Source: a virus. From it: DNA of 64,000 bases. The position numbers and the translations under genes were made by a program. Positions 15,197 to 44,547 of this stretch are shown here, piece after piece (the stretch's first letter is position 1; each line of letters starts with the position of its first letter). The notes under the pieces were generated by a model. That model was not told where the DNA came from, did no database searches, and saw only the letters and a list, made by a program, of their open reading frames with translations. The stretch lies in the IMG/VR virus record IMGVR_UViG_3300027762_000003, positions 16,028 to 80,027 of that record, one strand, 5' to 3'.

Positions 15197-15521
15197 ATTG
15201 AGCAGGATCTAATACTCTCTTAGGGATTGAAACCGAACACCAAATCGCATTAATCACTGCCGAAATTCAGGATTCAATGGATCTAATACTCTCTTAGGGA
15301 TTGAAACGTAATCCTGATCAACCCAAGCTAAGGCATTAGCCAGATTCAATGGATCTAATACTCTCTTAGGGATTGAAACAAGCTTGTGGGTAGCTCGCAG
15401 ATCCCCATCAAGATGATTCAATGGATCTAATACTCTCTTAGGGATTGAAACTGTTGCGTGCTAAATTAGAATCATCAATTGAGAGATTCAATAGATCTAA
15501 TACTCTCTTAGAGATTGAAAC
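15197..15521 (+). CRISPR. CRISPR array, five repeats and four spacers
   Basis: Repeats of 37 bases, each ending TAGGGATTGAAAC in plus reading, lie at 15197-15233 (5' part diverged), 15271-15307, 15343-15379, 15415-15451 and 15485-15521. Spacers are 37, 35, 35 and 33 bases. The last repeat has two G-to-A changes, which suggests transcription left to right with the oldest end at right. The ATTGAAAC end is that of many cyanobacterial type I and III arrays. No cas1, cas2 or cas6 is in the window; the type IV-like genes are 17 kb away. Confidence 0.93.
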
Positions 15522-17154: not shown

Positions 17155-17184
17155 ATCCGATTAAATCCGATTAAATCCGATTAA
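17155..17184. repeat. Three tandem copies of a 10-base unit at the dnaN stop
   Basis: ATCCGATTAA repeats three times exactly; the first minus-strand copy includes the stop codon of dnaN. A like 10-base duplication lies at the stop of the annealing protein gene (530-549). Confidence 0.85.
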
Positions 17185-18260
17185 TAATCCCTAATCTGAA
17201 CCGGCATAATCAACACAAGACGATCACCGTCCTTCACGACCGCCGGGGTATTCGGTTGATTGACGTGGAGAGTAAACTCACCATCAGGAAGGGCGGACAC
17301 AAGGTAGGGGTGATGGATAGCGATTCTGAACGGCTCATCAATAATGGATGCAACGACTTCCTCGCTCGCAGATCCGGTATCCCCGCTACATGAGAATGAC
17401 TCAACTTTTGCGAGAACGCCTTCCCCAAATTGGAGCGCGACATTCCTGGTATCACCACAAGTGATTGCTACCCGATCTAGAGCCGCTTTCAACTCACTCC
17501 CATTCATGGTGATTTCATGCTTGAATTCAGCCGGTATAAGCCTAAGTGCATCAGGATACTGCCCAGAAGGGATGCGTGCTGCAATTCGGGTATCTCCAGT
17601 GATAAATAAAATCTGAGAATCATCAAACTTGAATTCGATATTCCCATCAGCCGCCACCTTGAGAATGGCAACCGCCGATCCGGGAATAGTAACCATGAAA
17701 TCATCAGACTTCAATTCTCCAGATGAGTAGCCCAAGCGCTTTCCGTCTGTGGCGATCGCGTGGAGAATATTGTCGGCAATCGAAACATTTACCCCGGTCA
17801 AAACCTGCTTCGTTTCATCTTTGCTGGCATAGCGCGAAGCGAACCGAAGATGTTCTATGACTGACTCAGGGAGCGTGTAGGCACGGTCGCTTTCGATTTC
17901 GGGGAATTCCGGAAAATCGTCAGCAGCGATCGCCTTGTATTGAAACTTACCTTTACTCCACTTAATCAAGACATTGAACTCATCATCAATGTCTAGGCTG
18001 ATTTCCTGATTGCGGTCGATTTTGCTAACGACTTGCTTTAGGAAATCGTAGGGGATACAGAATTCTCCAGAGTCGGAACTTTCCACTGGAATCTTGGTGG
18101 CGATCGCCGTCTTCAGATCTGATCCCGTCACCAGTAAGGAGTCCTCTGTTAATACCATCTTGACGTTAAGTAGCATGGTATTGAATGGTCGGGAATCGAT
18201 TGTGCGCCCAACAATATCAAGAGCGCTTTTTAGGACTGCAACATTACAACTAAATTTCAT
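17181..18260 (-). CDS. dnaN: DNA polymerase III beta subunit, sliding clamp
   Basis: 359 residues, the usual length of a bacterial clamp. It forms the ring that ties the polymerase to DNA. Seen: MKFSCNVAVLKSALDIVGRT, AIAADDFPEFPEIESDRAY (the DFPxxP element between domains 1 and 2), ATDGKRLGYSS, RIAARIPSGQYPDALRLIPA, and the ending LVLIMPVQIRDY that matches the MPMR-type C-terminus. A phage-borne clamp suggests replication by a viral or host replicase specialised for it; no polymerase alpha is in this window. Its start overlaps the gene upstream (TAATG). Confidence 0.93.
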   Translation of the reverse strand: MKFSCNVAVLKSALDIVGRTIDSRPFNTMLLNVKMVLTEDSLLVTGSDLKTAIATKIPVESSDSGEFCIPYDFLKQVVSKIDRNQEISLDIDDEFNVLIKWSKGKFQYKAIAADDFPEFPEIESDRAYTLPESVIEHLRFASRYASKDETKQVLTGVNVSIADNILHAIATDGKRLGYSSGELKSDDFMVTIPGSAVAILKVAADGNIEFKFDDSQILFITGDTRIAARIPSGQYPDALRLIPAEFKHEITMNGSELKAALDRVAITCGDTRNVALQFGEGVLAKVESFSCSGDTGSASEEVVASIIDEPFRIAIHHPYLVSALPDGEFTLHVNQPNTPAVVKDGDRLVLIMPVQIRDY

Positions 18261-18590: not shown

Positions 18591-18970
18591 TTATTTAATC
18601 AATGCAGAAAAATCTATCAAATCATCCAACTCTTTAATTATTGGATATTTACTTGAGAGTCTGTTTAATTTCGTAGTGGCTTTTTCATCACTACAGACAA
18701 TAATAAGCCTCTCAATTACCCACCCTTAGCTTCCACAAAGAGAGACGGAACGGTTTCTCCTTTTTTGATGACCGCAAAATCACATCGCCATACAAGACTA
18801 CGATTGGGCTTAACATAGGAATTACTTGGGCAAAGCGGGATTCTATATTGCTGGTCTATCCGGTGTTCGCTTTCTGGGAAATGGTCTAACAGATGGTAGT
18901 AAACGCAAGCTTCAAAATTTGAGTCAAACTTCTTACCCTCCAAATAAGTTACATTGCTTCGATACCTCAT
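18591..18970 (-). pseudogene. Phage endonuclease with -1 frameshift
   Basis: The first frame (18970-18716) gives 84 residues: RYRSNVTYLEGKKFDSNFEA, then WRCDFAVIKKGE and SLFVEAKGG followed by a stop. The E...D...ExK layout is that of the restriction-endonuclease-like DUF1064 or phage nuclease families, which normally continue for about 40 residues. The -1 frame starts at that point and runs VIERLIIVCSDEKATTKLNR to 18591 with no start codon of its own. Joined, they give about 127 residues, the right size. Either a programmed slip on GGTGGG or a disabling deletion. Confidence 0.6.
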
Positions 18971-19533
18971 TTGATCTTCTCCATGTGTGAATTAACTTTC
19001 TCTGCCCAACTTGGATCGGTGGCGTAAACTTCTCCAATTAGTTTAAGGCTTTCCTCTGGATTTGTCTTAGTAAATTCAGTTGTTCTACCATGTTCCTTGA
19101 GGATGTTCTCTACCGTTTGAGCAAACAGAATATCGCTCTTGTCGTCTGCAAATCCCAAGTCCTGCACAACCATTTGCCCGCCATAATATTCGGTGGTGGT
19201 GGTGGTGACATCGTTACCCTTGATTCCCCAATGATTGTTCTCGCCAATTACTGCTGCGCCGTTACCTGTTTCGTGAGAGGCGATCGCCAATGTAATTGCA
19301 GGGTTGATGCCGTAATCTTTCTCCAGATCTTGCGCGATCGGGTAGAGGGATTTCTGATATTCATCAAGGTTAGTCAGTGTTGTTAGCTGTTGCTCTCCTG
19401 GATTAGATAGCGGTATCCACCAATGGGATTGCCCTAGGTTGCCCAGGATGAGATGAATAGATAAAAGCCCGGCTGCCATTAGGCTAATTTTGGCTAGGAG
19501 CTGTAGCTGTGGGTCGTGGCTCGTTTGTTCCAT
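18967..19533 (-). CDS. Membrane-anchored glucosaminidase-type lysozyme
   Basis: 188 residues. Residues ~12-32 are a membrane helix (ISLMAAGLLSIHLILGN). The rest looks like a FlgJ/GH73-type N-acetylglucosaminidase: AITLAIASHETGNGAAVIGE with the catalytic Glu, NNHWGIKG, and YATDPSWAEKV. It would cut the glycan strands of peptidoglycan. The start overlaps the lipoprotein gene by 50 bases; an ATG at 19479 is an option. It begins a membrane and wall cluster with the M23 peptidase. Either a lysis enzyme or a channel-forming lytic enzyme. Confidence 0.75.
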   Translation of the reverse strand: MEQTSHDPQLQLLAKISLMAAGLLSIHLILGNLGQSHWWIPLSNPGEQQLTTLTNLDEYQKSLYPIAQDLEKDYGINPAITLAIASHETGNGAAVIGENNHWGIKGNDVTTTTTEYYGGQMVVQDLGFADDKSDILFAQTVENILKEHGRTTEFTKTNPEESLKLIGEVYATDPSWAEKVNSHMEKIK

Positions 19534-19882
19534 AGATAGTGTCTAGTCCTAGTTCGTAGGCTCTTGCGTTTGCAAATTCTCTCGCTGATTCGATTGAGTT
19601 AAATTCAATGGGGTAAATGCTATACCTAATCCCTTCAAGGGTGCAGGTTTGCCCAATTGGGGGAGTCAGGGCGATCGCCACATAATAAGTATTTCCCTTA
19701 GCTCTGGTTGGGCATGTGTCACCAGGTTGGTTATTTTTACCCTTGATGTTGACATCAAAATCCCCAATAAATGTGTGGTCGAATTCATCCGGGATGATTC
19801 TGTATTCGCCTTTGGGAGTGGCGAGCGTGCAACTGGATATTAGTCCAGTGATTAAAGTCAAAAACACGAGCTTGAGTTTCAT
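19484..19882 (-). CDS. Lipoprotein
   Basis: 132 residues, signal peptide MKLKLVFLTLITGLISSC with lipobox ISSC at 15-18. The mature part has three further Cys and no recognised domain. It lies between a cell-wall peptidase and a glucosaminidase and overlaps the former by 4 bases (ATGA). By position it could be an outer-membrane disruption (spanin-like) protein or a wall-linked anchor; this is inference. Confidence 0.65.
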   Translation of the reverse strand: MKLKLVFLTLITGLISSCTLATPKGEYRIIPDEFDHTFIGDFDVNIKGKNNQPGDTCPTRAKGNTYYVAIALTPPIGQTCTLEGIRYSIYPIEFNSIESAREFANARAYELGLDTIYGTNEPRPTATAPSQN

Positions 19883-20559
19883 GGCTTGAGTACCTTCTCT
19901 AAAAGTTCTCTGGATGGAATGGGGCGATCGCCGTTCTTGTCCTTGAGCCTCAAGTCCAAATGGGGGCCGGTTCCTGCATCCCCACTTTCGGCGATCTTCT
20001 GTCCCTTCTTGGCAGCGCCTGGGGTGCAGTCATGTAAGTGGAGAAATTGAACGGTGTACGTGCCTTCTGGGCTAGGGAACTCAGCCACTAATCCGGCTAA
20101 TCCGCCATAATTGGGACATTGCACCGTAGTGTCAAAAGGTGCGTAAAGTGGAGTGCCGGTTGGCGTTCCAACATCGATCGCTGCATGATAAGAGGAGCAG
20201 CCGCTACAGGGTGAGACTCTTGGCCCATAGCCAGAGGTCACGGGATGTCCAGCAATGGAGTCACCGGGAACTAGGCTTATGTTTGAAATTAGTTGAGCGT
20301 CTTGAATAGCTCCAGAGGTAGGGATGTTTGCCGTGCTTTTAGTCTTGCCGGGTTTACCTAATTGAGATTCTAGAAAAGATTGCCAGGGTTTCATTGTTTC
20401 ATCCCATGTTTTATTTAAGTTTGGAAGGATTTGGATAGCCACAGCACCACAAGTTATAATGGTTGTGATCAGGAGAACACTGGTTTTTCTATTCGAGATC
20501 GTGGGACTTTTATTGCTGCGTTGAACTTCTTGCAGGTGGGGGGTGGTGATGCCCCCCAT
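19879..20559 (-). CDS. M23-family cell-wall metallopeptidase
   Basis: 226 residues from ATG 20559; an earlier TTG at 20646 overlaps the preceding gene. A membrane helix (TSVLLITTIITCGAVAIQIL) precedes a flexible stretch. The M23 domain is at the C-terminal half: TSGYGPRVSPCSGCSSYHAA, IDVGTPTGTPLYAPFDTTV, FLHLHDC and GTGPHLDLRL, giving the zinc ligands H/D and the second His. It cuts peptide crosslinks in peptidoglycan. A Cys pair (SPCSGCSS) is an odd insert near the first His. Confidence 0.85.
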   Translation of the reverse strand: MGGITTPHLQEVQRSNKSPTISNRKTSVLLITTIITCGAVAIQILPNLNKTWDETMKPWQSFLESQLGKPGKTKSTANIPTSGAIQDAQLISNISLVPGDSIAGHPVTSGYGPRVSPCSGCSSYHAAIDVGTPTGTPLYAPFDTTVQCPNYGGLAGLVAEFPSPEGTYTVQFLHLHDCTPGAAKKGQKIAESGDAGTGPHLDLRLKDKNGDRPIPSRELLEKVLKP

Positions 20560-20578
20560 TTTTACTTTGAGCTGGAAA

Positions 20579-20710
20579 TCAAGAGCCACCTTTAATAATC
20601 TCCACAATATTTGGGATATAGGAGCGTCGATAGCCTGGTGCGTCAAAACTCAAGGCGACTATCGCAAAAGCGCAGCAGGCTATAATTATTCCTTTGCTTA
20701 TCGACCCCAT
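20579..20710 (-). CDS. Tiny membrane protein
   Basis: 43 residues: MGSISKGIIIACCAFAIVAL is a single hydrophobic helix, then a polar tail. The ATG overlaps the last 13 bases of the gene upstream, in a CCATGG. It precedes the M23 gene by 20 bases. No family recognised. Confidence 0.55.
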   Translation of the reverse strand: MGSISKGIIIACCAFAIVALSFDAPGYRRSYIPNIVEIIKGGS

Positions 20711-20952
20711 GGCATTTGCACCGATGTAGGACGAATGGGACTTGTGTTGTTAGCGGCTTGATTGGCTCCGATATTTCCGATCCAATAAGCCGCGCCAACA
20801 AAGAAGCAAATAACGATAACGGAAGTGCCTACGACTTGCGACATAACCGAGAATCCACCGGCCACCGTATCGGTAACGGTGTGTGCCACATCAATCGTTG
20901 TTTTACGTTTCGCTAGACTTCCACCACGGGAAACCATATCAATATCTGCCAT
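20698..20952 (-). CDS. Small membrane protein
   Basis: 84 residues. Residues 1-35 are polar; residues ~38-62 are a membrane helix (VVGTSVIVICFFVGAAYWIG). It follows the ATPase gene by two bases, so it may be a partner of that ATPase. Not recognised. Confidence 0.6.
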   Translation of the reverse strand: MADIDMVSRGGSLAKRKTTIDVAHTVTDTVAGGFSVMSQVVGTSVIVICFFVGAAYWIGNIGANQAANNTSPIRPTSVQMPWGR

Positions 20953-20954
20953 GA

Positions 20955-22196
20955 TTATGCTCCTTTCTTCTTGAATTCGATTACATTACTTTTTGGCTGG
21001 GGATTGGATGGCGCTTGTACCGATAAATCAGGGGTAGCGGTCACGAAAGGATCGTCCCCTTCTCTGCAAATAATCGCCGCATATTTACCAAGCGCAATCC
21101 TTTCTCTGTGTAGTTTTTTCCTGTCCCAATGGTCAGGAATAATGGTGTTCGTATCGTTAATTAAGTTGCCCAACAAGTACCAATGCATCTGCATGGTTGC
21201 GCTGGAATCAAGCTCGCACATTCCTTTTTTGAGGGAGTGCAACCCTAGGAAAACATCGACGTGAAACTTACGGAATCCATTCTGGATATAGGTAATCATT
21301 TCAGCCATTTCCTTGCCCGCACCAGTCCGGGTGATAAACCCTTGATATTCATCGATCACTACCAATAGCGGGGGTTCTTTTTTTAGGATCGCTTCTTCTC
21401 TTCTTAGCCCTTCCTGGTAAACCTTGTTGAACGCGGATAAAGCTTTGAACGGGTCTCTGACTACAATTTGGCCATGCTCATCTTCTGAACATCCAGACAA
21501 CCAGGACTCTTCATCGGGGTCATAGTGGGGGTCAATGATTAGAAGCTTTGTATCCGGCCTCGCTTGCAACCGCTTGCTGAGTAAGTGTCTCAGTGCGGAT
21601 GACTTCCCCGAACCACGGGAACCCGCGATGATTGCCGATCCATTATGAAAAATCTTCTCGATTTCACTGAAGGGTTCAGATTCCTCATTGAATCCCATCC
21701 CATCAGCCCTGGCCGGGAATGAGGGTAACTCTTCCTCCTCTTCTTCGTCCCACAAGTCAATCGGGCTTGGGGATATAGGTTGTGGACGAGACCCAGCCGT
21801 AAATGGTGGGGGACTGCTGAAGATGTTGAACGAGCGCTCGGTGGTATCTGTTGGCTCTTCTTCTGCGCTTCTTGGTTCCGATGTCTGCCATGATTCTTCT
21901 TCCTCTTTGTCTAGTTCGTAATCGTCGATTCCGGTCACGGAATCGTCTATGGGTTCATTAGTTTCTTTGATTTGCTTCTTGTTCGGGGTGTAGGCATATA
22001 GCCCGCCTATCGCTGCCCCGCCGATCATCATCATTCCCAATCCCTTGAAGAGTGGGTGCGCGGGCGGCTGCACAGCTTCCTGGATGGATGAGTACGGGGT
22101 GGAGTTAAGCTCAATGGGTGGCTGGTAGCTGAAGGTGATCGCCCCACCTATCGCCAGGAGTGTCGATGCTGCCAGTACAGCCGGATTAAAAGGCAT
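20955..22196 (-). CDS. Membrane-anchored HerA/FtsK-like ATPase
   Basis: 413 residues. Two N-terminal membrane helices (residues ~8-25 and ~52-70) and an acidic linker (EEEEEEL) precede a P-loop domain from about 185. Walker A is AGSRGSGKSS, Walker B LLVVIDEYQGF. The later stretch DVFLGLHSLKKGM and the EKIFHNGSAIIAGSRG layout fit DNA-pumping or coupling ATPases (FtsK/HerA/VirD4 class). Likely sits at the membrane. With the wall enzymes and small membrane proteins around it, it could power DNA or virion passage across the envelope; that is inference. Confidence 0.75.
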   Translation of the reverse strand: MPFNPAVLAASTLLAIGGAITFSYQPPIELNSTPYSSIQEAVQPPAHPLFKGLGMMMIGGAAIGGLYAYTPNKKQIKETNEPIDDSVTGIDDYELDKEEEESWQTSEPRSAEEEPTDTTERSFNIFSSPPPFTAGSRPQPISPSPIDLWDEEEEEELPSFPARADGMGFNEESEPFSEIEKIFHNGSAIIAGSRGSGKSSALRHLLSKRLQARPDTKLLIIDPHYDPDEESWLSGCSEDEHGQIVVRDPFKALSAFNKVYQEGLRREEAILKKEPPLLVVIDEYQGFITRTGAGKEMAEMITYIQNGFRKFHVDVFLGLHSLKKGMCELDSSATMQMHWYLLGNLINDTNTIIPDHWDRKKLHRERIALGKYAAIICREGDDPFVTATPDLSVQAPSNPQPKSNVIEFKKKGA

Positions 22197-22912
22197 CAGT
22201 GTACACCTCCATCCATCGTGATTGTTATGGTGGGATCGATTGAGCGTTGAACATCAAAAGCAATATCAGAGCGATTGTTGGCACGTTCGAGATCTCGGTA
22301 TCCTTCCAGAACTTTCCGGCTATTCGCCAACTCCTTTAACCACACTCCGTCTGTATCACCGCCTAAGTCTCTGTCAAAAACTAGCGCGGTATGGGCCGCC
22401 TGATGTTTGACAATTGCAAAAGCTTTTAATTCCTCATCGGAAACTGCTAATTCTACTCTCCTGCCTTCACGGTTGACATAGATGATCTTGGCTTGAGTGC
22501 CCCCAACCGTTGCATCATTAGCTAAGTCTTGGGCATTGGCGATCGCCCCTAGGATGGCTTGATGTTCAGGAACTCGATACAGGGGAGACTCTGGATTTGT
22601 GGACGCATCTTTAACCCGATCCTTCATGCTTGACGCAACCGAGCTAATGATTTGCTGGTGGATACCCATTTGGGTTGGACTTGGTGTGCGGTCATTATCA
22701 AAGTAATCCTTTAGGTAGGTGTTCCATGCTTGCTGGAGATTGTCGGATGTCTGCGCCTGCTCTTGAGTAATCTGCGGAATAACTGCACCGTAAGGAACTT
22801 GGGAGCGGAAGGGTTGCATCGCTACGATCAGAATAGATGCAAAAAGGATGGAGGCGGCGATCGAGATTTGTTGTAAATTGAATTTGAACCGTGCAAGGGT
22901 AAAAGCTTCCAT
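22196..22912 (-). CDS. Membrane-anchored hypothetical protein
   Basis: 238 residues. N-terminal membrane helix (ISIAASILFASILIVAMQPF), then a soluble, mostly helical part. It overlaps the ATPase gene by one base (TGATG). Not recognised; probably a structural partner of the ATPase. Confidence 0.6.
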   Translation of the reverse strand: MEAFTLARFKFNLQQISIAASILFASILIVAMQPFRSQVPYGAVIPQITQEQAQTSDNLQQAWNTYLKDYFDNDRTPSPTQMGIHQQIISSVASSMKDRVKDASTNPESPLYRVPEHQAILGAIANAQDLANDATVGGTQAKIIYVNREGRRVELAVSDEELKAFAIVKHQAAHTALVFDRDLGGDTDGVWLKELANSRKVLEGYRDLERANNRSDIAFDVQRSIDPTITITMDGGVH

Positions 22913-22914
22913 GA

Positions 22915-23133
22915 TTAGAATCCTCCAAAAGGAACGACGGCGGGGGTAACGGGTTGCTCGTAGGGGTAGGCGCTAATCCCCTCCCGAATGAGTGAGCCAA
23001 TATATAAAGCAGATCCGATCGCTACCCAAGTGGAGGTCACGTGAACCACCGCCGCTATGAACGGCATTGGTAGCGCCCAAGCAATGATAGGGATGAGTGG
23101 GGAAATAATCATAAGGTCGATGATGCGATCCAT
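22915..23133 (-). CDS. Small two-helix membrane protein
   Basis: 72 residues from ATG 23133 (AGGAATC in front). Two hydrophobic segments: LMIISPLIPIIAWALPMPFI and VHVTSTWVAIGSALYIGSL. The layout (two helices, polar tail) fits a holin or a small channel subunit. Ends two bases before the next gene. Confidence 0.6.
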   Translation of the reverse strand: MDRIIDLMIISPLIPIIAWALPMPFIAAVVHVTSTWVAIGSALYIGSLIREGISAYPYEQPVTPAVVPFGGF

Positions 23134-23159
23134 TTTTCTGATTCCTGTCGTTATGTTGT

Positions 23160-23863
23160 TTATTTCTCTCTCCTGAAGCCAATGAACGCGCCTAGCGCTG
23201 CTACGGCTAAGGCTGAGAAAAGAGGGGAAAGGGTGGGGTGGATTGCGTACCCGACAAATCCACCGATACCGGAGATGGGTGCGGCACAAAGTAAAACTTG
23301 GCGCTGCTCTTTCCAGGCTAGTTGCTGCTGCTGAGATACGAACTCGGCAAGCAGGGCTTCACTGGTTGGGGTATCGATCCAGCGATGACTGCCATCGTCT
23401 TCTCTACCGGGCGCAATCCCAACTCCCCCAGTGCTTGGTCTAAAGGGCTTTCGTAAATCTCCCTCATTGCTTGCATCCGTGATTCGATTAATCGCTGCCC
23501 CAACTCTTCCAGGGATTGAGCTTCACCTGCAACATAAGCGCGCAAGGTTTCAGTCCCGGTTAGAACCCCTGCTGTCGCTCCCCTTTGAATGCCCTGGCTA
23601 CGAAGCACGGAAAAGATATCACGGTGGGCGCGATCACCACTCGAAAGGTTGGATATAGTTTCCTGTTCTGGAGTCAGGTCGCCGCCCTTCACTTGTTGGC
23701 GGTTCGCATTCTGTGCAGCCTTCTCTTTTGCTGATAATAATTGCTCAACAATTTCATCGGGAATCTCATTGACCCCATAAAGCGTTTTGTCGATAGCTGA
23801 CAGCATTTTGTCAAGCTGGGGATTGGTCACGTTGATAAGTTGTAATACTTCTGCTCGTTTCAT
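23160..23863 (-). CDS. Hypothetical protein, possibly extended by -1 frameshift
   Basis: The first frame (23863-23318) gives 181 residues with a helical N-terminus (MKRAEVLQLINVTNPQLDKM). Near its end the -1 frame opens and runs on as PTSEALLAEFVSQQQQLAWK and a membrane segment (ISGIGGFVGYAIHPTLSPLF) to a stop at 23160, with no start codon. A slip at ATACCCC would join them to give a protein ending in membrane helices like its neighbours. Either a programmed frameshift or an assembly error. Confidence 0.5.
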
Positions 23864-24270
23864 TTGTTTTTCCTGAAGTTAAAGTGAATGATGGTTTGAC
23901 TTTCTCTCTGTCCGTTCAGCCGCTTGTTGTATTGTGCCAAGCTGAATTTCTCTGGTTCGGTAATTAATGCTGTTTTGATTTCCTCTCGTTTCAACCTCTT
24001 CTTGCCTGGAGACCTACCAGGCTCGGTATAGGGTGGGGAGGTGAAAATTTTTAGGAGCCAGATCACGTAATCATCGAGTGGTGACCTGGGATTAACAACA
24101 GCTTCATCGCAAAGAGCGGAGATTGTTGTTAATAAATAATGCAAAGAAGACGTTCGATAAATACCTAAATCATCGGCTATTTGATGACGGGTCAACGTTC
24201 GGTTGGACAATGTAATCACTTTGTTTTTACTGTGTTTAATTCCTCTGTGATGTCTATGCTCATGTGACAA
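23860..24270 (-). CDS. HTH-type small protein, first gene of membrane cluster
   Basis: 136 basic residues. LTRHQIADDLGIYRTSSLHY resembles a helix-turn-helix. Its last 4 bases overlap the next start (ATGA). It opens the operon that leads to the ATPase and wall enzymes, and copies of TCATGTGAC in and after its start region hint at autoregulation. Confidence 0.55.
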   Translation of the reverse strand: MSHEHRHHRGIKHSKNKVITLSNRTLTRHQIADDLGIYRTSSLHYLLTTISALCDEAVVNPRSPLDDYVIWLLKIFTSPPYTEPGRSPGKKRLKREEIKTALITEPEKFSLAQYNKRLNGQRESQTIIHFNFRKNK

Positions 24271-24408: not shown

Positions 24409-24432
24409 AAGCCAAGTCTCTAAACTTGGCTT
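24409..24432 (-). terminator. Terminator of the gene at 24458
   Basis: Minus reading: AAGCCAAG, 8-base loop, CTTGGCTT, then TTTTA. Confidence 0.75.
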
Positions 24433-32819: not shown

Positions 32820-33410
32820 GTGCAATCCAAGGAAGCAAAAACAAGGATCAAAGTGTACCGATTTTACGGAATGCCAGCAACTACGGAACCCAGGTATGGA
32901 TTAATTTCGGCCATATCTTATGCAGTATTGATCTGCCGAGATCGTCGTCGAAGTCAGCTTCAAGGGACTAGCTTCTGGGAGCGATTTCACAAGTGTGTCT
33001 ATGATGCTGGAATCAGATCGACTAATCTCCTGGAGTATCCAGCACTCCTATGCCAAGGGGTGAGTTCAGACTTAACCCAGGCTATCCTCAAGGGATTGTC
33101 CATCCCTCTATCCGAATGCCCTGATATTCACCTCCCCATCCTCCCCACTGGAGAAGCGGGGGACTTGTTCACCCCCAACCAGTCCCCACTACTGACAGCC
33201 TATTGGGTAGAGACCGTGGCTAAATGCTGCAAACTCCACGGATATACAGAAGAGGATATTCTGGAAATTCCTAGGGATATCACCAAGTCGCAATGGGTAG
33301 CGGTCTCTTGTCGGGTCAGAAGAGAGGAGGATAAGGAGATAGCCAAGGTTAATAGTGATCGAGCCAAGGCACTGGAAGAATTGGAAACAATTGAAGTCGA
33401 GGTAAGTTAA
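32820..33410 (+). CDS. Type IV CRISPR small subunit candidate (Cas11-like)
   Basis: 196 residues if the GTG at 32820 is used; the GTG near 32854 with AAGGATCAAA in front is an alternative. The protein is mostly helical (LLTAYWVETVAKCCKLHGYT; terminal coil KVNSDRAKALEELETIEVEV). Its place directly before csf2, two bases away, is that of the cas11 gene in type IV-B loci, and the size fits, but I see no diagnostic motif. Assigned mainly by position. Confidence 0.5.
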   Translation: MQSKEAKTRIKVYRFYGMPATTEPRYGLISAISYAVLICRDRRRSQLQGTSFWERFHKCVYDAGIRSTNLLEYPALLCQGVSSDLTQAILKGLSIPLSECPDIHLPILPTGEAGDLFTPNQSPLLTAYWVETVAKCCKLHGYTEEDILEIPRDITKSQWVAVSCRVRREEDKEIAKVNSDRAKALEELETIEVEVS

Positions 33411-33412
33411 TA

Positions 33413-34576
33413 ATGGACTACGATATCCACGATCGCCGTCACGTCACTTATCACTGTGTATTCGATCTGCTCTCCCCCTTGAGCCACATTGGGGAAACTC
33501 TCGGTGGTAGCAATATCACCGTACTTAAACAAGCCAAACGCATCGCCATTGATGGGAGGGAGCGATCTCACTTCGTTTTTTCTTCCAACGCATTCAGAAA
33601 CGCCATATTTAGACGCAAGGGATTTGGATTTACCCTTGACGGATTAGGCGTGCAAGTTGACCCCACCACCCATCACACCCTTTTTGCAGGAGGGCGGATC
33701 GACTCCGGGACAGTTGCCAATATCGAGCTTGAAGACCAGTTTCGGCGCTGGCTTCCTGGCTTATCCGTACTCGGAACCGCCAAACCTAAAGACATGGGAG
33801 GGGAGAAAGGCTCCCAGATGATTAGTGGGCGGCTATCCGTAGGTGATGCTGTTCTTGTTTGTTACGAAACTATTAATTACATTTATCAGCAAGCGCCTGG
33901 ATTGATTCCCTATTCAATTTACTCATCCGTCAAGCGGATTATGGAGGCAAGGGAGGCGATCACTGCCGATATTTTTTCGCAACCGTCTCCAGAGGCGAGC
34001 GCTGCTTATGAGAAAGCACTGGAGGAGGAGCTACCCAAAATCAAGCAGCACTTGAAATCCTCTACTGCGTGCATTTCCACTAATCGCTTCTATCGCCGCG
34101 ATAGCGAGAGTGATCCTGATTTAGTGAAATACCTGAAAGCGCCTGAGCAGAAACTCATCGGCACTATCCCCGGACTTACGGAGGAAAAAAAGAAGCCGGT
34201 AGCAGAGAAACAGGAGTCTCGATTCATGGGAGACGACCACTTGATTGCTCCAGGCAACCAACTCTATAGCCGGATGGACATGCACGGCACGACTGTAGAG
34301 GAAGGATTTCTCTGTGCAGCGCTCCTAGAATTCGCCAAGCACCCTTATATAGGTGGTAAATCGAATCGAGGTAATGGGCACGTAAACTTGAGGATAAATT
34401 ACAAGGATCACACCATAGGGGAATCGGGAATATTGCTTTCGGTGGGAACCGACTACCAGCAATTAAGCGATCGCGCTCAAGAGAATTACCGTCGGTATTG
34501 TAATCATTTGGAGGAATTTAAGCACCATCTGGAATCCGCAGATTCTATGCCTAGACATCTTTTAGGAGGGAAATAA
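33413..34576 (+). CDS. csf2: Csf2, type IV Cas7-like backbone protein
   Basis: 387 residues. Cas7-type RAMP features: FDLLSPLSHIGETLGGSNIT near the start, a Ser/Asn-rich stretch FSSNAFRNAIFRR, RRWLPGLSVLGT, and GGKSNRGNGHVNL near the end as the glycine-rich loop. In type IV complexes several Csf2 copies form the RNA-binding filament. It sits in a compact row with csf3 and cysH. Family known from plasmids and phages. Recognition rests on these motifs and context; a profile search would settle it. Confidence 0.82.
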   Translation: MDYDIHDRRHVTYHCVFDLLSPLSHIGETLGGSNITVLKQAKRIAIDGRERSHFVFSSNAFRNAIFRRKGFGFTLDGLGVQVDPTTHHTLFAGGRIDSGTVANIELEDQFRRWLPGLSVLGTAKPKDMGGEKGSQMISGRLSVGDAVLVCYETINYIYQQAPGLIPYSIYSSVKRIMEAREAITADIFSQPSPEASAAYEKALEEELPKIKQHLKSSTACISTNRFYRRDSESDPDLVKYLKAPEQKLIGTIPGLTEEKKKPVAEKQESRFMGDDHLIAPGNQLYSRMDMHGTTVEEGFLCAALLEFAKHPYIGGKSNRGNGHVNLRINYKDHTIGESGILLSVGTDYQQLSDRAQENYRRYCNHLEEFKHHLESADSMPRHLLGGK

Positions 34577-34582
34577 ATAGAA

Positions 34583-35269
34583 ATGGAACCCATACAGATT
34601 ACCGCTTGGATGAGTAGCGCGATCGCGCTGCCCGACGATTGGTCGCCCGACTTGGTGGGCATAGTGATCGCTACCATATTTGATAAAGATCCTCGCCCTT
34701 TTCAAGAGGATTTATCCACACTTGAGGGGGTTCCCTTTGCTAAAACCGATTTAGGTTCCCCTCTACTTTGGTATTTTGCCTGCTCGTCCCCTTGCTACGA
34801 GCTACTTAGTGAAGAGGTGACCCGTTTCCGAAAACGCTGGGACGCTGATGACGGTCGGGTTAGCTGGGGTAAGCGCAAGCCCCAATTTAACGCATCGGAG
34901 GGGAGTGAGAAAAATTATGATCTCCCTCTTCCTCTCAGGGGAATGGAGCGGATCGATTGGTTCGCCATTGGAGATATCGGAGGCGCAGAGCGACTGCTCA
35001 AGCAAGTCACCCACCTAGGGAAAAAACGGAAAGGGGTTGTGGCGCGGTGGGTGGTGAAGGCAATCGCTCACGACTGGCATCTGTACCGCAACAACGAGCT
35101 AATGCGTCCTATCCCTATTAGCTGCAAGCGTCCCGAATGTCTTTCATACGGCATTCGGGATTGGGGATGGCGGCCCCCAATCTGGCTACCTAAGAATAAG
35201 GAGCGGTGTGCCATGCCGGTAATCACAGTAATCAAGCCATGGATGAACAATCAAGAGCAAGCTTTTTAG
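34583..35269 (+). CDS. csf3: Csf3, type IV Cas5-like protein
   Basis: 228 residues. Signs of Csf3: N-terminal beta-alpha region ITAWMSSAIALPDDWSPDLV, and near 150 THLGKKRKGVVARWVVKAIA followed by WHLYRNNELMRPIPIS, which matches the KKR...W...LMRPxP block of Csf3. In the complex it caps the RNA 5' end next to Csf2. It starts 6 bases after csf2 and its end overlaps cysH. Confidence 0.8.
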   Translation: MEPIQITAWMSSAIALPDDWSPDLVGIVIATIFDKDPRPFQEDLSTLEGVPFAKTDLGSPLLWYFACSSPCYELLSEEVTRFRKRWDADDGRVSWGKRKPQFNASEGSEKNYDLPLPLRGMERIDWFAIGDIGGAERLLKQVTHLGKKRKGVVARWVVKAIAHDWHLYRNNELMRPIPISCKRPECLSYGIRDWGWRPPIWLPKNKERCAMPVITVIKPWMNNQEQAF

Positions 35270-35931
35270 GATGGACTCAACTCCCTCGATTTAAGAAAAG
35301 AGTGGAGGAAGCCAAGCGAACCATCAATGAGGCACTGGCGATCGCTCCCTCCTATGTTGCGGTTAGTTGGGGAAAAGATAGCACCGTACTACTCCACCTG
35401 TGCCAACAAATCGATCCGAATATCAAGGCTATTTCACTAGGGAATCCGGATCGCTCTTTTTGTGGCTATGAGCAGGTAATTTCGGACTACTGCGATCGCT
35501 TCCCAACCAATCTCGAAACAATCGAAATAGAGGGAGATCACGTTCCCGACAAACTCAAGCAACTGCGACTGTGGGAGCGGTATCCTATGGCGATCGTAGG
35601 AGTACGGAAAGAGGAATCGCAATATCGCTCGATGGCTATTTCTCGTTATGGGCTGATCTACCAATTCACCAATGGCGAAAAGGAGGGAAGTTGGAGGTGC
35701 TTTCCTTTGGGATATTGGGGATGGCAAGATGTCTGGGGTTATATAGTGCAGCACGATTTACCTTATCTGAGTGCCTACGATCGCCAATCTTGGGAAAGGG
35801 GAAGGACGACTGACCATTTGAGTAAAAGCACTAAAAAGCGATGGCAGCGTACCCGATTAGAGGGATTAGCGTCCATCGCTCCTGAATACTATCAGTATTT
35901 GCTCAAGCAATACCCAGAAATGTTCAACTAG
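35239..35931 (+). CDS. cysH: CysH-like PP-loop ATPase of type IV-B locus
   Basis: 230 residues from ATG 35239 inside csf3; a GTG at 35206 is the other choice. PP-loop SWGKDSTVLLHL near the N-terminus, LGNPDRSFCGYEQVI, and IVGVRKEESQYR typical of the PAPS reductase/sulfotransferase-like family. The catalytic Cys of true PAPS reductases is not seen at the C-terminus. cysH-like genes are a known companion of type IV-B loci; their task is unknown, perhaps nucleic acid modification. Confidence 0.85.
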   Translation: MDEQSRASFLGWTQLPRFKKRVEEAKRTINEALAIAPSYVAVSWGKDSTVLLHLCQQIDPNIKAISLGNPDRSFCGYEQVISDYCDRFPTNLETIEIEGDHVPDKLKQLRLWERYPMAIVGVRKEESQYRSMAISRYGLIYQFTNGEKEGSWRCFPLGYWGWQDVWGYIVQHDLPYLSAYDRQSWERGRTTDHLSKSTKKRWQRTRLEGLASIAPEYYQYLLKQYPEMFN

Positions 35932-36256
35932 CTAGGACAAAATCGACCCCATTAGGGGTTACAATCCCATCCCCGTAGCTGACCGAAATAAACTCCAACC
36001 CTTCATGTCCAATATCGGAAAATCCATGAACTTGCCCGGATTCCTTATGGTAAAGATCCCCCTTCTTTATCTGGTGATTTTTGTCTCCATCAAACCAGAT
36101 CCCACTTCCTCTTAGGATTTGGATACTACAGGGTACTTCGTGACTATGGGGAGGGACTTCACCACCCTCTTCTATCCTCACCAGGAGGACTTGAGTATTG
36201 TAGCGATTGAAGATATTTTGAACGGTTGTTTTCTTGCACTCGTCAATCTCAAACAT
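35924..36256 (-). CDS. Cupin-fold protein inserted in the CRISPR locus
   Basis: 110 residues. Cupin pattern: EGGEVPPHSHEVPCSIQILR (metal His pair with Glu) and DLYHKESGQVHGFSDIG (second His motif). It is read against its neighbours, overlaps the end of cysH by 8 bases, and separates csf1 from the other csf genes. Function unknown; such cupins often bind small ligands or metals. Confidence 0.8.
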   Translation of the reverse strand: MFEIDECKKTTVQNIFNRYNTQVLLVRIEEGGEVPPHSHEVPCSIQILRGSGIWFDGDKNHQIKKGDLYHKESGQVHGFSDIGHEGLEFISVSYGDGIVTPNGVDFVLAS

Positions 36257-36293
36257 ACACTAATCCAATTTTGTTGACCCATCTATTTTAACC

Positions 36294-36968
36294 ATGAATT
36301 ACTGTTATCTGTGCGGGAAAGACGGAGATCGCCCATTAGATCTTCCCAAAACATTCACCGCCCATAACCTAGCCAAAAACCCCACGTCTGACGTACTCTG
36401 TGATCGCTGTTACGGGACGATTGCAGGTGACGAAAAACAGCTCTACTACTGGAACGAGAACAAGAATCCGCCTGCATGGTCAAAGTTATGGGGGCGATCG
36501 CTCTCCAGGCTTTACGTGGGAGAAGAACTGAGATCACCCATCATCGAAGGAGAGCGGGAAGGTACGGCGATCGTCCACTCTTTACCCACTCGTGTAGAAA
36601 TCCGGCAATGGCTCATCAATCCACCTGAGCCACCATTTACAATCGCCATCTCGGTTTCAGGGCAAAAGCATATTTTACCTTTTGCCCAAGAAGCGCATGA
36701 TAGAGAGCGGTTTCCGATTCGATTTGAGTTAACCTCTTTGGAGGTCAACCGCCAAGAATTCACTCGCCTACTCGCTAATTTTGAAATGCTTTACGACATG
36801 GGATTGACTAAAGCGGAAATCCTTAAAGGCAATTACAGTGTGTCACGAGTGGCGGCGATTCCTTATGCGGATTTCCTGAAAAGAGAGGAGGAGATCGCGC
36901 AGTACCGTGGCACTGACCTGCTAGAGTTGGCGGCGTTTGTAGCGCAAAAGGAAGGGGCGATCGAGTAG
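36294..36968 (+). CDS. csf1: Csf1, type IV zinc-finger protein (Cas8-like)
   Basis: 224 residues. The N-terminus CYLCGKDGDRP and VLCDRCYGTIA gives a CxxC...CxxC zinc finger as in Csf1. The middle has PPFTIAISVSGQKHILPFA, and a helical part follows (FEMLYDMGLTKAEILKGNYS). In type IV the protein is the large-subunit relative. It is usually first in the locus; here it is last, after the inverted cupin gene. Near its start TTGACC lies 14 bases before TAACC. Confidence 0.78.
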   Translation: MNYCYLCGKDGDRPLDLPKTFTAHNLAKNPTSDVLCDRCYGTIAGDEKQLYYWNENKNPPAWSKLWGRSLSRLYVGEELRSPIIEGEREGTAIVHSLPTRVEIRQWLINPPEPPFTIAISVSGQKHILPFAQEAHDRERFPIRFELTSLEVNRQEFTRLLANFEMLYDMGLTKAEILKGNYSVSRVAAIPYADFLKREEEIAQYRGTDLLELAAFVAQKEGAIE

Positions 36969-37048: not shown

Positions 37049-38938
37049 TTAAAAATTAGTAGATCTCAATAACTCCAGTTCCCTCTCGCGTTTCTTACCT
37101 TCAATTAACTGCTGACTAAAATACTCATACTCTTTTAAGTCGAGCTTGACATTGATTTTCGCTATCTGTTCAGTAGCGTATTGAATGCGCTTTTTGCAGA
37201 TCAATTTTTCCACAGTTAACACCGCTTTCTCGATTGAAAGAATAGGCTTTTGAATATCCGATAAGTGTTTTTCCTGTAGGCATAATAATCTGTGGTACTG
37301 CTCACCAGCCTCTATGTATTCCAGTTCACTTTGCAGCCTAGAGATTAAATCGGTAGAGTCTATGGGCAGGCTTTCTTGTAATTCCTTGATCTGATTCCAG
37401 AGCGCTTGATGGTGGGGATACTGGAACGAGAGACGACGATCTCTCACAACCCGCAAGAAATAATCACGCGCTTCAGGTGCGTGGAGGTAGATTCGCAAAA
37501 TCAGACTCTCGGCTTCAAGTAGTAACCGGTCTTCTGGGTTGGACTCGATTTTGATTTTCGGAATACTGGGATTACTTCTAGATTGGGGAATGTGGCGTAA
37601 GCGCTGCACTTGCCTTGCCAAGTCTGCGGTAATCAATTTGAGGCGATCGCTGTTACCCCGGCTTAGATACTCACTACAGACCCCAATATAATAATTCCGC
37701 ATAGTAGGGTCATCGATTTTGCTTAAGACTTTTACCCAAGCTTGCGCTACCTCTTGGAATTCGTGAGCAGAACCGAGATCCTTACCTTTCATGGTTTGCT
37801 CAATCTGCCAGTCAATCCAGAGGGAAGCTTTCTGCACCAGGTCTAAATAGGCTTGATTTCCTGAAGATTTCAGAAACTCATCAGCATCTTTACTTTGGGG
37901 GAGACTAAGAATGCGAAGTTGGATTTGCCCTTGATAGACTAGATCCGCAATCTCTGAAATAGCGCGCCCTGTGGCCGTGGTTCCTGCTTGGTCGGTATCA
38001 AAATTGAGGATGATTACCTTGGAGTACCGAGCCAACCTCTTGATTTGGGAGCTACTCAATGCAGTACCCAAAGACGCGACAGACTCGGAAACGCCGGAGG
38101 CATGGAGGGCAATCGCATCGAAGTAACCCTCGACCACAATAGTCCGATCCTGCTTGACGATCGCCTTCTTGGCTTTGTCGAGTCCAAACAGCAGATTCCC
38201 CTTTTCAAAGATGGGGGTTTCTGGAGAATTCAGATACTTTGGCTTTGCATCCCCTAACGCTCTTCCCCCGAAGCCCACAACCCGCCCCTGGATATCGCAA
38301 ATGGGAATCATTAGGCGATCGCGGAACCGGTCATAATAACCAGAGGATTTGCGCTTAATCACCAACCCCGCTTTCTCAACCACGCTTACCGGATATCCCT
38401 TGACCTCTACCAAGTGGCGATAGAGGTCTTGCCACTCATTTGGTGCATAGCCCAATCCGAATCCCTGGATCGTCTCCCTGGACAAACCTCGCTGTTCCTG
38501 TAGGTAAGTTAGCGCTTTTGTCGCGTTGGGTTGATGTAGGGCATGTTGGAAAAAGTTGGCGGCGATCGCCATAACCTCAAACAACTGTTCATTCAGGGAT
38601 AACTGTCGTTGAAACTCCTTACTGTCCTGATTATCCATTGTGCGGATGGGGACTTCGTAGCGTTTTGCCAGATCTAAGGCTACTTCCCCAAACGAGCGAC
38701 TATCCAACTGTTTCAGGAAGCTAATGGCATCCCCACCCGCGCCACAGCCGAAGCAGTGAAAAACCTGCTTAGTCGGGCTAACGGTAAAGCTTGGACTCCT
38801 TTCGTCATGGAACGGACACAACCCGGCAAACTCACGCCCCTGTTTCTTCAGTACCACCCGCTCCGAGATGATCTCGACAATATCAATCCGTTGCTTGATT
38901 TCTTCAATGGTGTCGGGGTGGAGTCTAGGGATATTCAT
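37049..38938 (-). CDS. dnaG: DNA primase
   Basis: 629 residues from ATG 38938 (MNIPRLHPDTIEEIKQRIDI); the earlier in-frame starts overlap the plus-strand leader and are unlikely. Makes RNA primers. CHC2 zinc finger at 41-65 (CPFHDERSPSF...HCFGCG), the RNA polymerase domain with RFRDRLMIPICDIQGRVVGF, and Toprim with VVEGYFDAI and NFDTDQAG. The C-terminal third is helical, as in the helicase-binding region. A bacterial-type primase in a phage goes with the viral clamp at 17181. Confidence 0.95.
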   Translation of the reverse strand: MNIPRLHPDTIEEIKQRIDIVEIISERVVLKKQGREFAGLCPFHDERSPSFTVSPTKQVFHCFGCGAGGDAISFLKQLDSRSFGEVALDLAKRYEVPIRTMDNQDSKEFQRQLSLNEQLFEVMAIAANFFQHALHQPNATKALTYLQEQRGLSRETIQGFGLGYAPNEWQDLYRHLVEVKGYPVSVVEKAGLVIKRKSSGYYDRFRDRLMIPICDIQGRVVGFGGRALGDAKPKYLNSPETPIFEKGNLLFGLDKAKKAIVKQDRTIVVEGYFDAIALHASGVSESVASLGTALSSSQIKRLARYSKVIILNFDTDQAGTTATGRAISEIADLVYQGQIQLRILSLPQSKDADEFLKSSGNQAYLDLVQKASLWIDWQIEQTMKGKDLGSAHEFQEVAQAWVKVLSKIDDPTMRNYYIGVCSEYLSRGNSDRLKLITADLARQVQRLRHIPQSRSNPSIPKIKIESNPEDRLLLEAESLILRIYLHAPEARDYFLRVVRDRRLSFQYPHHQALWNQIKELQESLPIDSTDLISRLQSELEYIEAGEQYHRLLCLQEKHLSDIQKPILSIEKAVLTVEKLICKKRIQYATEQIAKINVKLDLKEYEYFSQQLIEGKKRERELELLRSTNF

Positions 38939-38961
38939 GGGAAGTCCGGAGGGCGATCGGG

Positions 38962-39033
38962 TATAATATAGAAGTGCCCCCGCGATGTAATCAGCAACCG
39001 AGGGCGTGACCCATCTAGAACAAGTAGACAGGT
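38962..39033 (+). promoter_or_regulatory. Structured leader and promoter, copy C of four
   Basis: TATAAT (38962-38967), then a CCCCCG/CGAGGG-type hairpin with weaker inner pairing, then TGACCCA and hairpin TCTA-GAACAAG-TAGA before the ATG at 39034. Against copy D (CCTA-GAACAAG-TAGG) both arms of this last hairpin change together. Confidence 0.6.
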
Positions 39034-39177
39034 ATGAATAAGTTAAGATATTTTGACGGAATCCGCTATGGGGAATACCGCGATCTTGAGGTATTGGTTG
39101 GTCGTCTTTGGGGAGGGCGATCGGTAAATGTCCATAATGCCTACTCATGCCCGCCTATGTCGGTTTGTGTCCATTGA
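39034..39177 (+). pseudogene. Short frame behind leader C, remnant of a regulator gene
   Basis: 47 residues, MNKLRYFDGIRYGEYRDLEV at the start. The first residues resemble the BRO gene at 13837 (MNKLSVFDF) but the rest does not. With the same leader in front it is probably what remains of a BRO-type gene. Confidence 0.45.
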
Positions 39178-39235: not shown

Positions 39236-39610
39236 ATGGCAAAAAAATCTAGGTTCACCAACACTCAGAAGAGAACTATCTTAGTTGAGTCTGTCGCTCT
39301 TGGTGATAGTGCTACGGCAAAAAAATATAATATAGACCCTAAGACACTGTTTCGATGGCGAAAAGAGATAGATCAAGAGGAGTTAGATAGAGCCATAGAA
39401 GAGGCTGGCCCATTTTCGACAGAATTCAACGAAACCCTCAAACTCTCCACTCAATTCCTGAATGAACTCCTGAAGAAGGCGATCGTTAATATCCAGAACA
39501 TGAATGACCAAGGGGAGTCCAGGGCGATCGCCGCCTACCATGGATTATTTAAGGCGTGTGCCGATCTTAATATCCTGAAAGAGTTAGAACGAGACTCAGA
39601 GGATGATTAG
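39236..39610 (+). CDS. Terminase small subunit candidate
   Basis: 124 residues. Helix-turn-helix region (VALGDSATAKKYNIDPKTLF, RWRKEID) then a coiled coil. Its last 8 bases overlap the large terminase gene, the usual place for the small subunit, which picks the DNA packaging site. A promoter is not clear; GTCCATT and AATGGAC form an inverted pair upstream (39168-39212). Confidence 0.7.
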   Translation: MAKKSRFTNTQKRTILVESVALGDSATAKKYNIDPKTLFRWRKEIDQEELDRAIEEAGPFSTEFNETLKLSTQFLNELLKKAIVNIQNMNDQGESRAIAAYHGLFKACADLNILKELERDSEDD

Positions 39611-41093
39611 CATACAAGCCAGAATTAATGAAAAGCTTAATCGGAGGCGACAAAAACGCAGAGAAGGCAGGAGGTCACCACTAATTAAGCTTGAGCAAGC
39701 GATCTCCGACATCGATGGGCCAGTTGATTTCACACGCCAGATTCTTGGCATCAAGCTCTACCCCAAACAAGAAGAACTCTTAGCCGCGATCTGGCAACCT
39801 GGAGTTACCCACGTGGTGTTGTCACTCGGCAGACGTTCCGGTAAGACCACCATGGCGGCTATTTGTGCGGTTTATGCTGCAATCTGCTTGGGCGATCGCT
39901 ACCGTAAAGCGCTTGGTCTACGCTCCACGTTTAATATCCTCTGTATCGCCAACAAGGAGGCACAATCCAAAGTCGCGCTAGGGATGATTAGGGACTTAAT
40001 TCAGAAAGCGCCCCTACTCAAACCCTTAATCAAGCGCCAAGCAATGGAAACCCTAGAACTAACCAACGGGGCAATCTTTACGGCATCCCCCGCCTCATCT
40101 AGGGGTATCCGTGGGGAAGCATCACCCCTAATTATTTTCGATGAGTTGGCTCACTCCCTCGACACATCCGGAAACGCAGCCGGTGACCAACTCTATCAAG
40201 CGGTGGCTCCTGGCGCTGCTCAGTTCGGGAAGTACGCCAAGATTCTTATGCTTTCTACCCCATGGATTCAAGGGGGAATTTTTTGGGACTTCTATAACCA
40301 AGGGCAATCCCCCGATTACCCGTCCACGTTCTCTATTTCCTTGCCAACATGGGAAGTTAACCCCCATCTACCCTATGATGGGGAATTCCTCAAAGAAGAG
40401 CGCGATCGCGACCCATGGTCATTTAACATCGAGTACGGCGCTAACTTTGCCTCACCCGTAGGCGCTTTTCTCTCGTCTGATGACGTGGAAGCGTGCATAC
40501 TCAGAGAACATGCCAACCCCACCCCAACGAAGTCAGACCACTACTACACCCTTTCTCTTGACCCTGCTAAAGGTGGGCGGGATGAGTATGTAGCCTGCAT
40601 CCTCCACTGGGAAAAGGATGAGTGCATAGTCGATCGCTGGTATGTATTTGAGCCATCCGTCCAGGATGGTAAGCGGAAACTCGTAAGCGTGGAAGAAGTA
40701 GAGAATTGGATTATCGAGAGCGATCGCCGCTACCGGTTCCACAAGATTATCCTCGACCAGTACAACAGTCAAAGCACTATACAGAGCCTAAAGAAGCGCG
40801 GGTTACCTTGCCGTGAACTTCATTGGTCAGCCAAGTCGGTGACGGAAGCCTACACCAAACTAAGAAACCTGGTCATCTCTGGCAACCTAAACCTGTACCG
40901 GCACAAGAAGGCGATCGAACAGTTGAAGGGATTAATTGTGAGGTACAACAGCGTAGGCACAATGTCTATTAGCGGCGGTGACGGTGCGGGGGTTGACGAC
41001 TACTGCGCTGCTCTTGCCGGCGCTGTGTTGGTGAGTACGCCACCCAGACCGCCAGGGCGATCGGGTACGTTCTCGATGAGTATGTGGGGGTGA
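39603..41093 (+). CDS. terL: Terminase large subunit
   Basis: 496 residues. ATPase: Walker A LGRRSGKT (75-82), Walker B LIIFDE (176-181), motif C LMLSTPW. Nuclease: SLDPAKGG with D320, IILDQYN with D385, and GVDDYCAAL near the end. It cuts and pumps viral DNA into the head. Size is normal. It opens the plus-strand packaging and head region, though portal follows 4 kb later behind regulatory genes. Confidence 0.95.
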   Translation: MISIQARINEKLNRRRQKRREGRRSPLIKLEQAISDIDGPVDFTRQILGIKLYPKQEELLAAIWQPGVTHVVLSLGRRSGKTTMAAICAVYAAICLGDRYRKALGLRSTFNILCIANKEAQSKVALGMIRDLIQKAPLLKPLIKRQAMETLELTNGAIFTASPASSRGIRGEASPLIIFDELAHSLDTSGNAAGDQLYQAVAPGAAQFGKYAKILMLSTPWIQGGIFWDFYNQGQSPDYPSTFSISLPTWEVNPHLPYDGEFLKEERDRDPWSFNIEYGANFASPVGAFLSSDDVEACILREHANPTPTKSDHYYTLSLDPAKGGRDEYVACILHWEKDECIVDRWYVFEPSVQDGKRKLVSVEEVENWIIESDRRYRFHKIILDQYNSQSTIQSLKKRGLPCRELHWSAKSVTEAYTKLRNLVISGNLNLYRHKKAIEQLKGLIVRYNSVGTMSISGGDGAGVDDYCAALAGAVLVSTPPRPPGRSGTFSMSMWG

Positions 41094-43827: not shown

Positions 43828-44547
43828 ATGGATTTTACCGAATTAGTGTCCAGCACACAACGTGCTGATGGTTTTGTCAACGCTACCAAGTGGTGTAAAG
43901 AATTTGGCTATGAAGTCAAAAATTGGAAGCGACTGCCTGAGACCAAGAAGCGAGCCAAAGCTTTACAGGATGAGGTTTTCAGGTTAACGGGTGAAAAAAT
44001 TACGCCCATTATTTCTGAGAATAAAGGACGTGCCGGATCGGTAACTTGGGTACATCCCATCATGGCTATCCACTTAGCCCAATACCTTTCCCCTGAGTTT
44101 GCCAACTTTGTCGCTGAAGTCTTTCAACGCTACCTTGAGTCCGATATCACCCTGGCTGATGAGATCGTGCAGCGCCAAGATGATCCAGAGCGGGTTAAGT
44201 GGCTGAAGGAGCGGATTGAGGGCAAGCTTGCACGTTTCTATTTCACTGATGTTCTGAAACGACATGGAGTCGGTGAAGTCAATCGGGGTCGGTATCGTGA
44301 GAACGGCTACGCTCTCTGCACCGAGGCAATCAACAAAACCCTTTTCGGCAAGACTGCCAAGCAGATCCGGGAAGAGCGCCAAGTCCAAGAAACCAGGGAC
44401 GGATTAAGCCGCGTGGAATTGGCAGCGCTCAACTTAGCTGAAACGATCGCCGCCGAAAATATCCGAGAGGGCGATCGCCGTGGCAATCGGCAGTGCCGGG
44501 ACAGTTGTCAGGACGCGGCATCAAGGGTGCGCCGCGTCTTTGATTAG
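43828..44547 (+). CDS. KilA-N domain regulator
   Basis: 239 residues. Residues 1-115 are a KilA-N DNA-binding domain: RADGFVNATKWCKEFGYEVK, RAGSVTWVHPIMAIHLAQYL and SPEFANFVAEVFQRYL. The remainder is helical and charged with an odd Cys/Arg-rich end (RGNRQCRDSCQDAASRVRRV). Such proteins act as antirepressors or gene switches in phages. It carries leader copy D. Confidence 0.88.
   Translation: MDFTELVSSTQRADGFVNATKWCKEFGYEVKNWKRLPETKKRAKALQDEVFRLTGEKITPIISENKGRAGSVTWVHPIMAIHLAQYLSPEFANFVAEVFQRYLESDITLADEIVQRQDDPERVKWLKERIEGKLARFYFTDVLKRHGVGEVNRGRYRENGYALCTEAINKTLFGKTAKQIREERQVQETRDGLSRVELAALNLAETIAAENIREGDRRGNRQCRDSCQDAASRVRRVFD
44512..44538 (+). terminator. Hairpin at the end of the KilA-N gene
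   Basis: GACGCGGC, 11-base loop, GCCGCGTC then TTT. It lies within the last codons. A second hairpin, GTTCACTTC/GAAGTGAAC, is at 44569-44591. Confidence 0.5.

Follow-up and report, generated by a model that had tools for sequence, protein, structure and literature searches.

A predicted membrane-anchored ATPase of the HerA/FtsK superfamily is encoded alongside putative cell wall enzymes in a cyanophage genome

A gene cluster combining a membrane ATPase and wall enzymes

The DNA analyzed here (the window, 64,000 nucleotides) spans bases 16,028 to 80,027 of the 80,027-base virus record IMGVR_UViG_3300027762_000003 and carries on its minus strand a cluster of ten or eleven genes, from position 24270 down to 18967, which overlap or are mostly separated by gaps of a few bases. 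We tentatively propose that this cluster is one operon with two halves, a membrane-motor module (genes A to F) built around an ATPase and a set of wall enzymes (genes G to I) that probably act in lysis. The original prediction, made from the letters of the sequence, had placed a glucosaminidase, a lipoprotein, an M23 peptidase, an ATPase and several small membrane proteins in this region; all were recovered, tightly packed on the same strand, on the evidence of Pfam matches, a lipobox, and Walker A and B motifs. The features are as follows (window positions; aa, amino acids).

24409-24432, minus strand: terminator-like hairpin dividing the cluster from upstream regulators (pattern scan, and seen in the sequence)
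23860-24270, minus strand: A, 136 aa, helix-turn-helix-like in appearance, no family match; TTG start uncertain
23318-23863, minus strand: B, soluble part, no family match; overlaps A by 4 bases
23163-23440, minus strand: extension of B, read in the -1 frame and carrying one or two membrane helices (translation, coding potential)
22915-23133, minus strand: C, small membrane protein of 72 aa, ATG at 23133
22196-22912, minus strand: D, 238 aa, single N-terminal membrane helix
20955-22196, minus strand: E, ATPase, 413 aa
20698-20952, minus strand: F, membrane protein of 84 aa, single helix
20579-20710, minus strand: F2, possible membrane protein of 43 aa with a single helix; overlaps the end of F
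19879-20556, minus strand: G, membrane-anchored M23-domain protein
19484-19882, minus strand: H, lipoprotein with lipobox LISSC, no family match
18967-19533, minus strand: I, membrane-anchored glucosaminidase, overlapping H
18716-18970, minus strand: J, fragment, coupled to I, whose motif resembles that of PD-(D/E)XK nucleases; membership of the module uncertain

The envelope proteins of the window are concentrated in this cluster. In a hydropathy scan, 8 of 10 cluster genes were found to encode a membrane helix or signal, compared with 3 of the 67 other genes, which were called by hand in the window. The corresponding hypergeometric P value (~3e-7) is optimistic, since the borders of the cluster were set by the original prediction, adjacent genes are not independent, and the 43-aa open reading frame at 20579-20710 was added in this analysis.

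The ATPase is a remote relative of HerA and FtsK

In protein E, two N-terminal membrane helices are joined by an acidic linker to a motor core of the HerA/FtsK type with Walker A (GSRGSGKS), DPHYD and Walker B (LLVVIDE) motifs. The second helix is the weaker one, falling under the hydropathy threshold and appearing helical in a low-confidence model. The best PADLOC matches were Mad8 (1.7e-8) and HerA (2.5e-4), and the PHROG family phrog_38189 was matched over two stretches (3.7e-20). In an alignment of E with four phage relatives, the Walker A core (GSGKS), DPHYD and the DE of Walker B were invariant, RK and HxLKK were kept, and the two N-terminal helices were present in all five sequences. 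Searched against the PDB, the profile built from these five sequences retrieved HerA proteins as the sole solved relatives (best E-value, 3e-4). The claim that the ATPase is membrane-anchored and HerA/FtsK-like is thus borne out by predicted helices, motifs and HerA profiles, E being at best a remote member of the superfamily. On profile comparison, HerA was matched in PADLOC and the PDB, the Pfam families of both FtsK and HerA stayed below their cut-offs, and VirB4-type NCBIfam matches were far under theirs.

A role of E as the packaging motor of this phage is very unlikely because a separate terminase is encoded in the window; portal and capsid genes are also present. The terminase large subunit TerL (39603-41093; phrog_2, 4.3e-35) has its best relative in the terminase of Synechococcus phage S-CBS4 (41% identity).

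Relatives of the ATPase occur in A-1/N-1-like cyanophages

tblastn searches with E returned only seven phage records, all A-1/N-1-like, with Nostoc, Anabaena or Dolichospermum as hosts and about 26-29% identity: A-1(L), A-1, N-1, YongM, YongM2, Elbi and Dfl-JY23. The reverse search with the Elbi protein returned the same seven records. As the A-1(L) protein scores 1138 bits against phrog_38189, this family is evidently that of the A-1/N-1 phage ATPase. Among the 72,556 plasmids of PLSDB no relative of E was found, nor any of D. A pattern-based scan of genome contigs with the ATPase alignment gave no match, which tests absence from cyanobacterial chromosomes only weakly. The phage relatives are annotated as "DNA translocase FtsK"; we found no test of their role. 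The YongM copy has been counted among the genes predicted to be essential for that phage and has been cloned (PMC11356776).

The ATPase gene of A-1(L), YongM2, Dfl-JY23 and Elbi is flanked by small genes on one side and by genes for a helicase and a DNA polymerase (B) on the other, with small membrane genes directly upstream. The genes named as virion parts in the A-1(L) record do not include that of the ATPase. The E cluster and the A-1-like phages have a common layout, in which two soluble proteins are followed by small membrane proteins and then by the membrane ATPase, the last being the only recognizable homologue. The four phages contain no glucosaminidase, and their sole M23 domain sits in a tail hub protein of ~900 aa. 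The motor module therefore exists without linked wall enzymes.

Near 23,430, the coding potential of B passes into the -1 frame, where it extends to 23,163 and adds one or two membrane helices; that of J likewise shifts to the -1 frame near 18,720. Errors of a single base in the assembly would most simply explain both changes, programmed frameshifting being a possible alternative. At the place matching the frame change of B, the A-1-like phages have an overlapping membrane gene, which is read in another frame and in most of them has its own start. This conserved gene, which is unannotated, overlaps its upstream neighbor and displays a coding-type substitution pattern (segments L002 6860-7123, L003 6733-6999 and L005 6058-6426).

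The motif of J (D...EAK) was read by eye and is of the kind found in PD-(D/E)XK nucleases; no family was significant for J, even with the frame change read through. The 200-residue domain of D behind its helix matched nothing in phages, plasmids, the PDB or viral contigs. Viral contigs likewise held nothing close to E, D, G, I or TerL. The cluster is accordingly known from a single genome, close relatives being absent from the collections searched.

Wall enzymes and lipoprotein

The glucosaminidase domain of I matches PF01832 above the cut-off (4.9e-15) and follows an N-terminal helix; a motif containing the presumed catalytic Glu (ASHETGNG) was identified by eye. I also matches endolysin PHROG families. 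G contains an M23 domain (PF01551, 8.3e-8, above the cut-off) behind a membrane helix and, judging from the sequence, more likely starts at the ATG at 20556 than at the TTG at 20646. Two M23 matches in viral contigs were considered as relatives of G and proved to be unrelated tail-side endolysins. These enzymes probably serve lysis. No holin or spanin family profile was matched by the small membrane proteins or the lipoprotein of the cluster.

Elsewhere in the window, a C39-like peptidase is encoded on the minus strand (44571-45077; 1.1e-19). Together, I and this peptidase match the two halves of the endolysin family phrog_10051.

Proposed roles of the two halves

We propose that the products of A to F would form an inner-membrane complex around the ATPase, whose motor domain would be cytoplasmic. 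The ATPase would most likely assemble into a ring and grip or pull double-stranded DNA at the membrane in the replication phase, possibly to complete the uptake of the genome, or else to retain or segregate phage DNA as it replicates. The wall enzymes of the G to I half, anchored to the membrane or to lipid, would cut peptidoglycan, most likely for lysis and possibly also to clear space for the membrane complex. The two halves would be expressed from a single transcript.

Several results weigh against this reading. Every Pfam motor match of E falls under its curated cut-off, including FtsK_SpoIIIE (PF01580; E-value, 0.001; 19.0 bits versus a cut-off of 24) and HerA (DUF87) (PF01935; 18.8 bits versus 23.2). 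Single-sequence structure prediction of E did not afford a usable model (pLDDT, 41). E also weakly matches phrog_2666 (5e-5), a family labeled terminase large subunit. No homology was found between the small proteins of the cluster and the neighbors of the A-1 ATPase gene. Finally, comparison of G with solved M23 enzymes indicated that the His and Asp of HxxxD and the His of the HLH stretch are kept, and that the last zinc-ligand position is occupied by Asp rather than His (GPHLD for GPHLH). The enzymatic activity of G is doubtful because of this change.

A membrane-anchored motor of the DNA-pump superfamily, very probably not the terminase, has been retained in two otherwise different cyanophage lineages; in the phage studied here, the gene layout links it to envelope proteins. 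Should this motor indeed transport DNA at or across the membrane of infected cells, it would perform a step of the cyanophage cycle that has gone unrecognized.

Alternative explanations

The best placed of the alternatives, and still an unlikely one, is a plain lysis cassette in which holin-like small proteins, endolysins (the glucosaminidase and the M23 protein) and a lipoprotein forming part of a spanin share their transcript with an ATPase of DNA metabolism. The wall enzymes match lysis families, and a lipoprotein and small membrane proteins are usual lysis components. However, holin and spanin profiles gave no match, the cluster lies beside genes for the sliding clamp, ribonucleotide reductase and regulators, away from the late genes, and the ATPase has a membrane anchor of its own and, in its relatives, is associated with small membrane genes. 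The view that the cluster goes beyond plain lysis, already put forward in the original prediction, is strengthened by these relatives, in which the motor gene, accompanied by small membrane genes, belongs to the replication region and is distant from wall enzymes. The opposite case, in which every protein would serve lysis and the ATPase would be a packaging relative, does not hold for the ATPase, since the terminase is separate; the wall enzymes, for their part, do match endolysin families.

Next in plausibility, and also unlikely, is a single trans-envelope conduit through which the ATPase would export DNA via a channel of small membrane proteins and the lipoprotein, while the glucosaminidase and the M23 protein would make a local opening in the wall, for instance toward a neighboring cell of a filament. 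Nearly all of the envelope proteins of the window share one putative operon with the motor, and a membrane-anchored LytM/M23 protein beside a SpoIIIE-type pump recalls the pair SpoIIQ and SpoIIIE. The M23 domain of G is membrane-anchored and altered at a zinc-ligand position, and PMC4982068 implies that the zinc site of the LytM domain of Bacillus subtilis SpoIIQ is not intact either. The relatives of the ATPase infect filamentous Nostoc and Anabaena. Nevertheless, neither a relaxase nor a coupling protein nor a recognized channel protein was found in the record, the motor occurs without linked wall enzymes in four relatives, and the wall enzymes match lysins. Furthermore, the filamentous hosts are those of the relatives. 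A phage-encoded conduit passing phage DNA between the cells of cyanobacterial filaments without lysis, by means of the phage's own wall-opening enzymes, is very improbable.

A third explanation, doubtful as well, is membrane-bound exclusion or defense, the ATPase sensing or blocking the DNA of competing phages. Mad8 (1.7e-8) and HerA are the top PADLOC matches of E, J carries its nuclease-like motif at the end of the operon, and the genome invests in conflict, judging from its type IV Cas genes and short CRISPR array. Yet the best-matching stretches of Mad8 and HerA span little beyond the P-loop region, no complete defense system was matched, and the wall enzymes are left unexplained.

The least credible proposal, a remnant or variant of a conjugation system on a phage-plasmid, draws on the resemblance of a membrane ATPase with wall enzymes to the make-up of conjugation operons and on a weak VirB4-like match of E (0.0087), but the virion gene set is full, no relative was found among the 72,556 plasmids, and a relaxase (PF03432 and PF08751, other relaxase families not having been searched genome-wide), a type IV secretion system coupling protein of the VirD4 type (PF02534), ParA (PF13614) and an integrase (PF00589) are absent from the 80-kb record. 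The suggestion of a conjugation-like system or phage-plasmid is thus not supported, none of the parts searched for, including the relaxase proposed as a check, having been found.

Genome and setting of the cluster

The 80-kb record represents the genome of a tailed cyanophage, and its gene set is normal for such a phage. Besides TerL, the following virion genes were located in the window.

45185-46528: portal
48408-49493: major capsid protein
54142-56613: minor head protein

A very long coiled-coil, tape-measure-like gene leaves the record at both ends (window 58146-64000; segment L006 1-3249) and would encode ~3,000 aa, provided that both parts are one gene. This run-off at both ends suggests that the genome may be circularly permuted and nearly complete. 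The size of the gene also suggests a very long tail.

Phage-encoded replication genes specify a sliding clamp, a DnaG-type primase and, as recognized by eye, a DnaB-like helicase (window 17181-18260 and 37049-39148; segment L006 4964-6334). No DNA polymerase gene was seen in the phage, which may recruit the host polymerase III. The product of 43828-44547, on the plus strand, resembles DdrC, a DNA damage response protein, with a match (1.9e-20) that falls short of the cut-off.

Type IV-like Cas effector genes occupy 32820-36968 on the plus strand (Csf2/Cas7, 7.8e-33; Csf1/Cas8, 3.9e-26; Csf3/Cas5, 6.7e-7). A CysH-like gene accompanies them, an arrangement found in type IV-B loci. A CRISPR array at 15197-15521 comprises five 37-base repeats with a spacing of 70-74; the repeat had no exact match in genome contigs or viral contigs. 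Nostoc phage N-1 carries a similar array of five 37-base repeats (PMC4916379).

Comparison with known systems

The endolysins of phrog_10051 combine a glucosaminidase and a C39 peptidase in one protein, whereas the two are encoded here by separate genes 25 kb apart, and I has a membrane anchor. HerA, including defense HerA and Mad8 of the MADS system, aligns with E over the P-loop core and the Walker B region. HerA proteins usually have an N-terminal part of their own, in place of which E carries the two membrane helices, and the nuclease or Sir2-type partner of HerA is not established for E. FtsK and SpoIIIE resemble E in being membrane-anchored motors of the same superfamily, the PF01580 match lying below the cut-off. 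However, they have four helices and a C-terminal gamma domain, whereas E has at most two helices and a short linker and ends at 413 aa without gamma. The A-1/N-1 phage ATPase (phrog_38189) differs from E by a C-terminal extension of ~100 aa, seen in the alignment, and its gene is not followed by wall enzymes as that of E is. Both proteins have two N-terminal helices and the same motor motifs, and both are encoded downstream of small membrane genes and outside the virion module.

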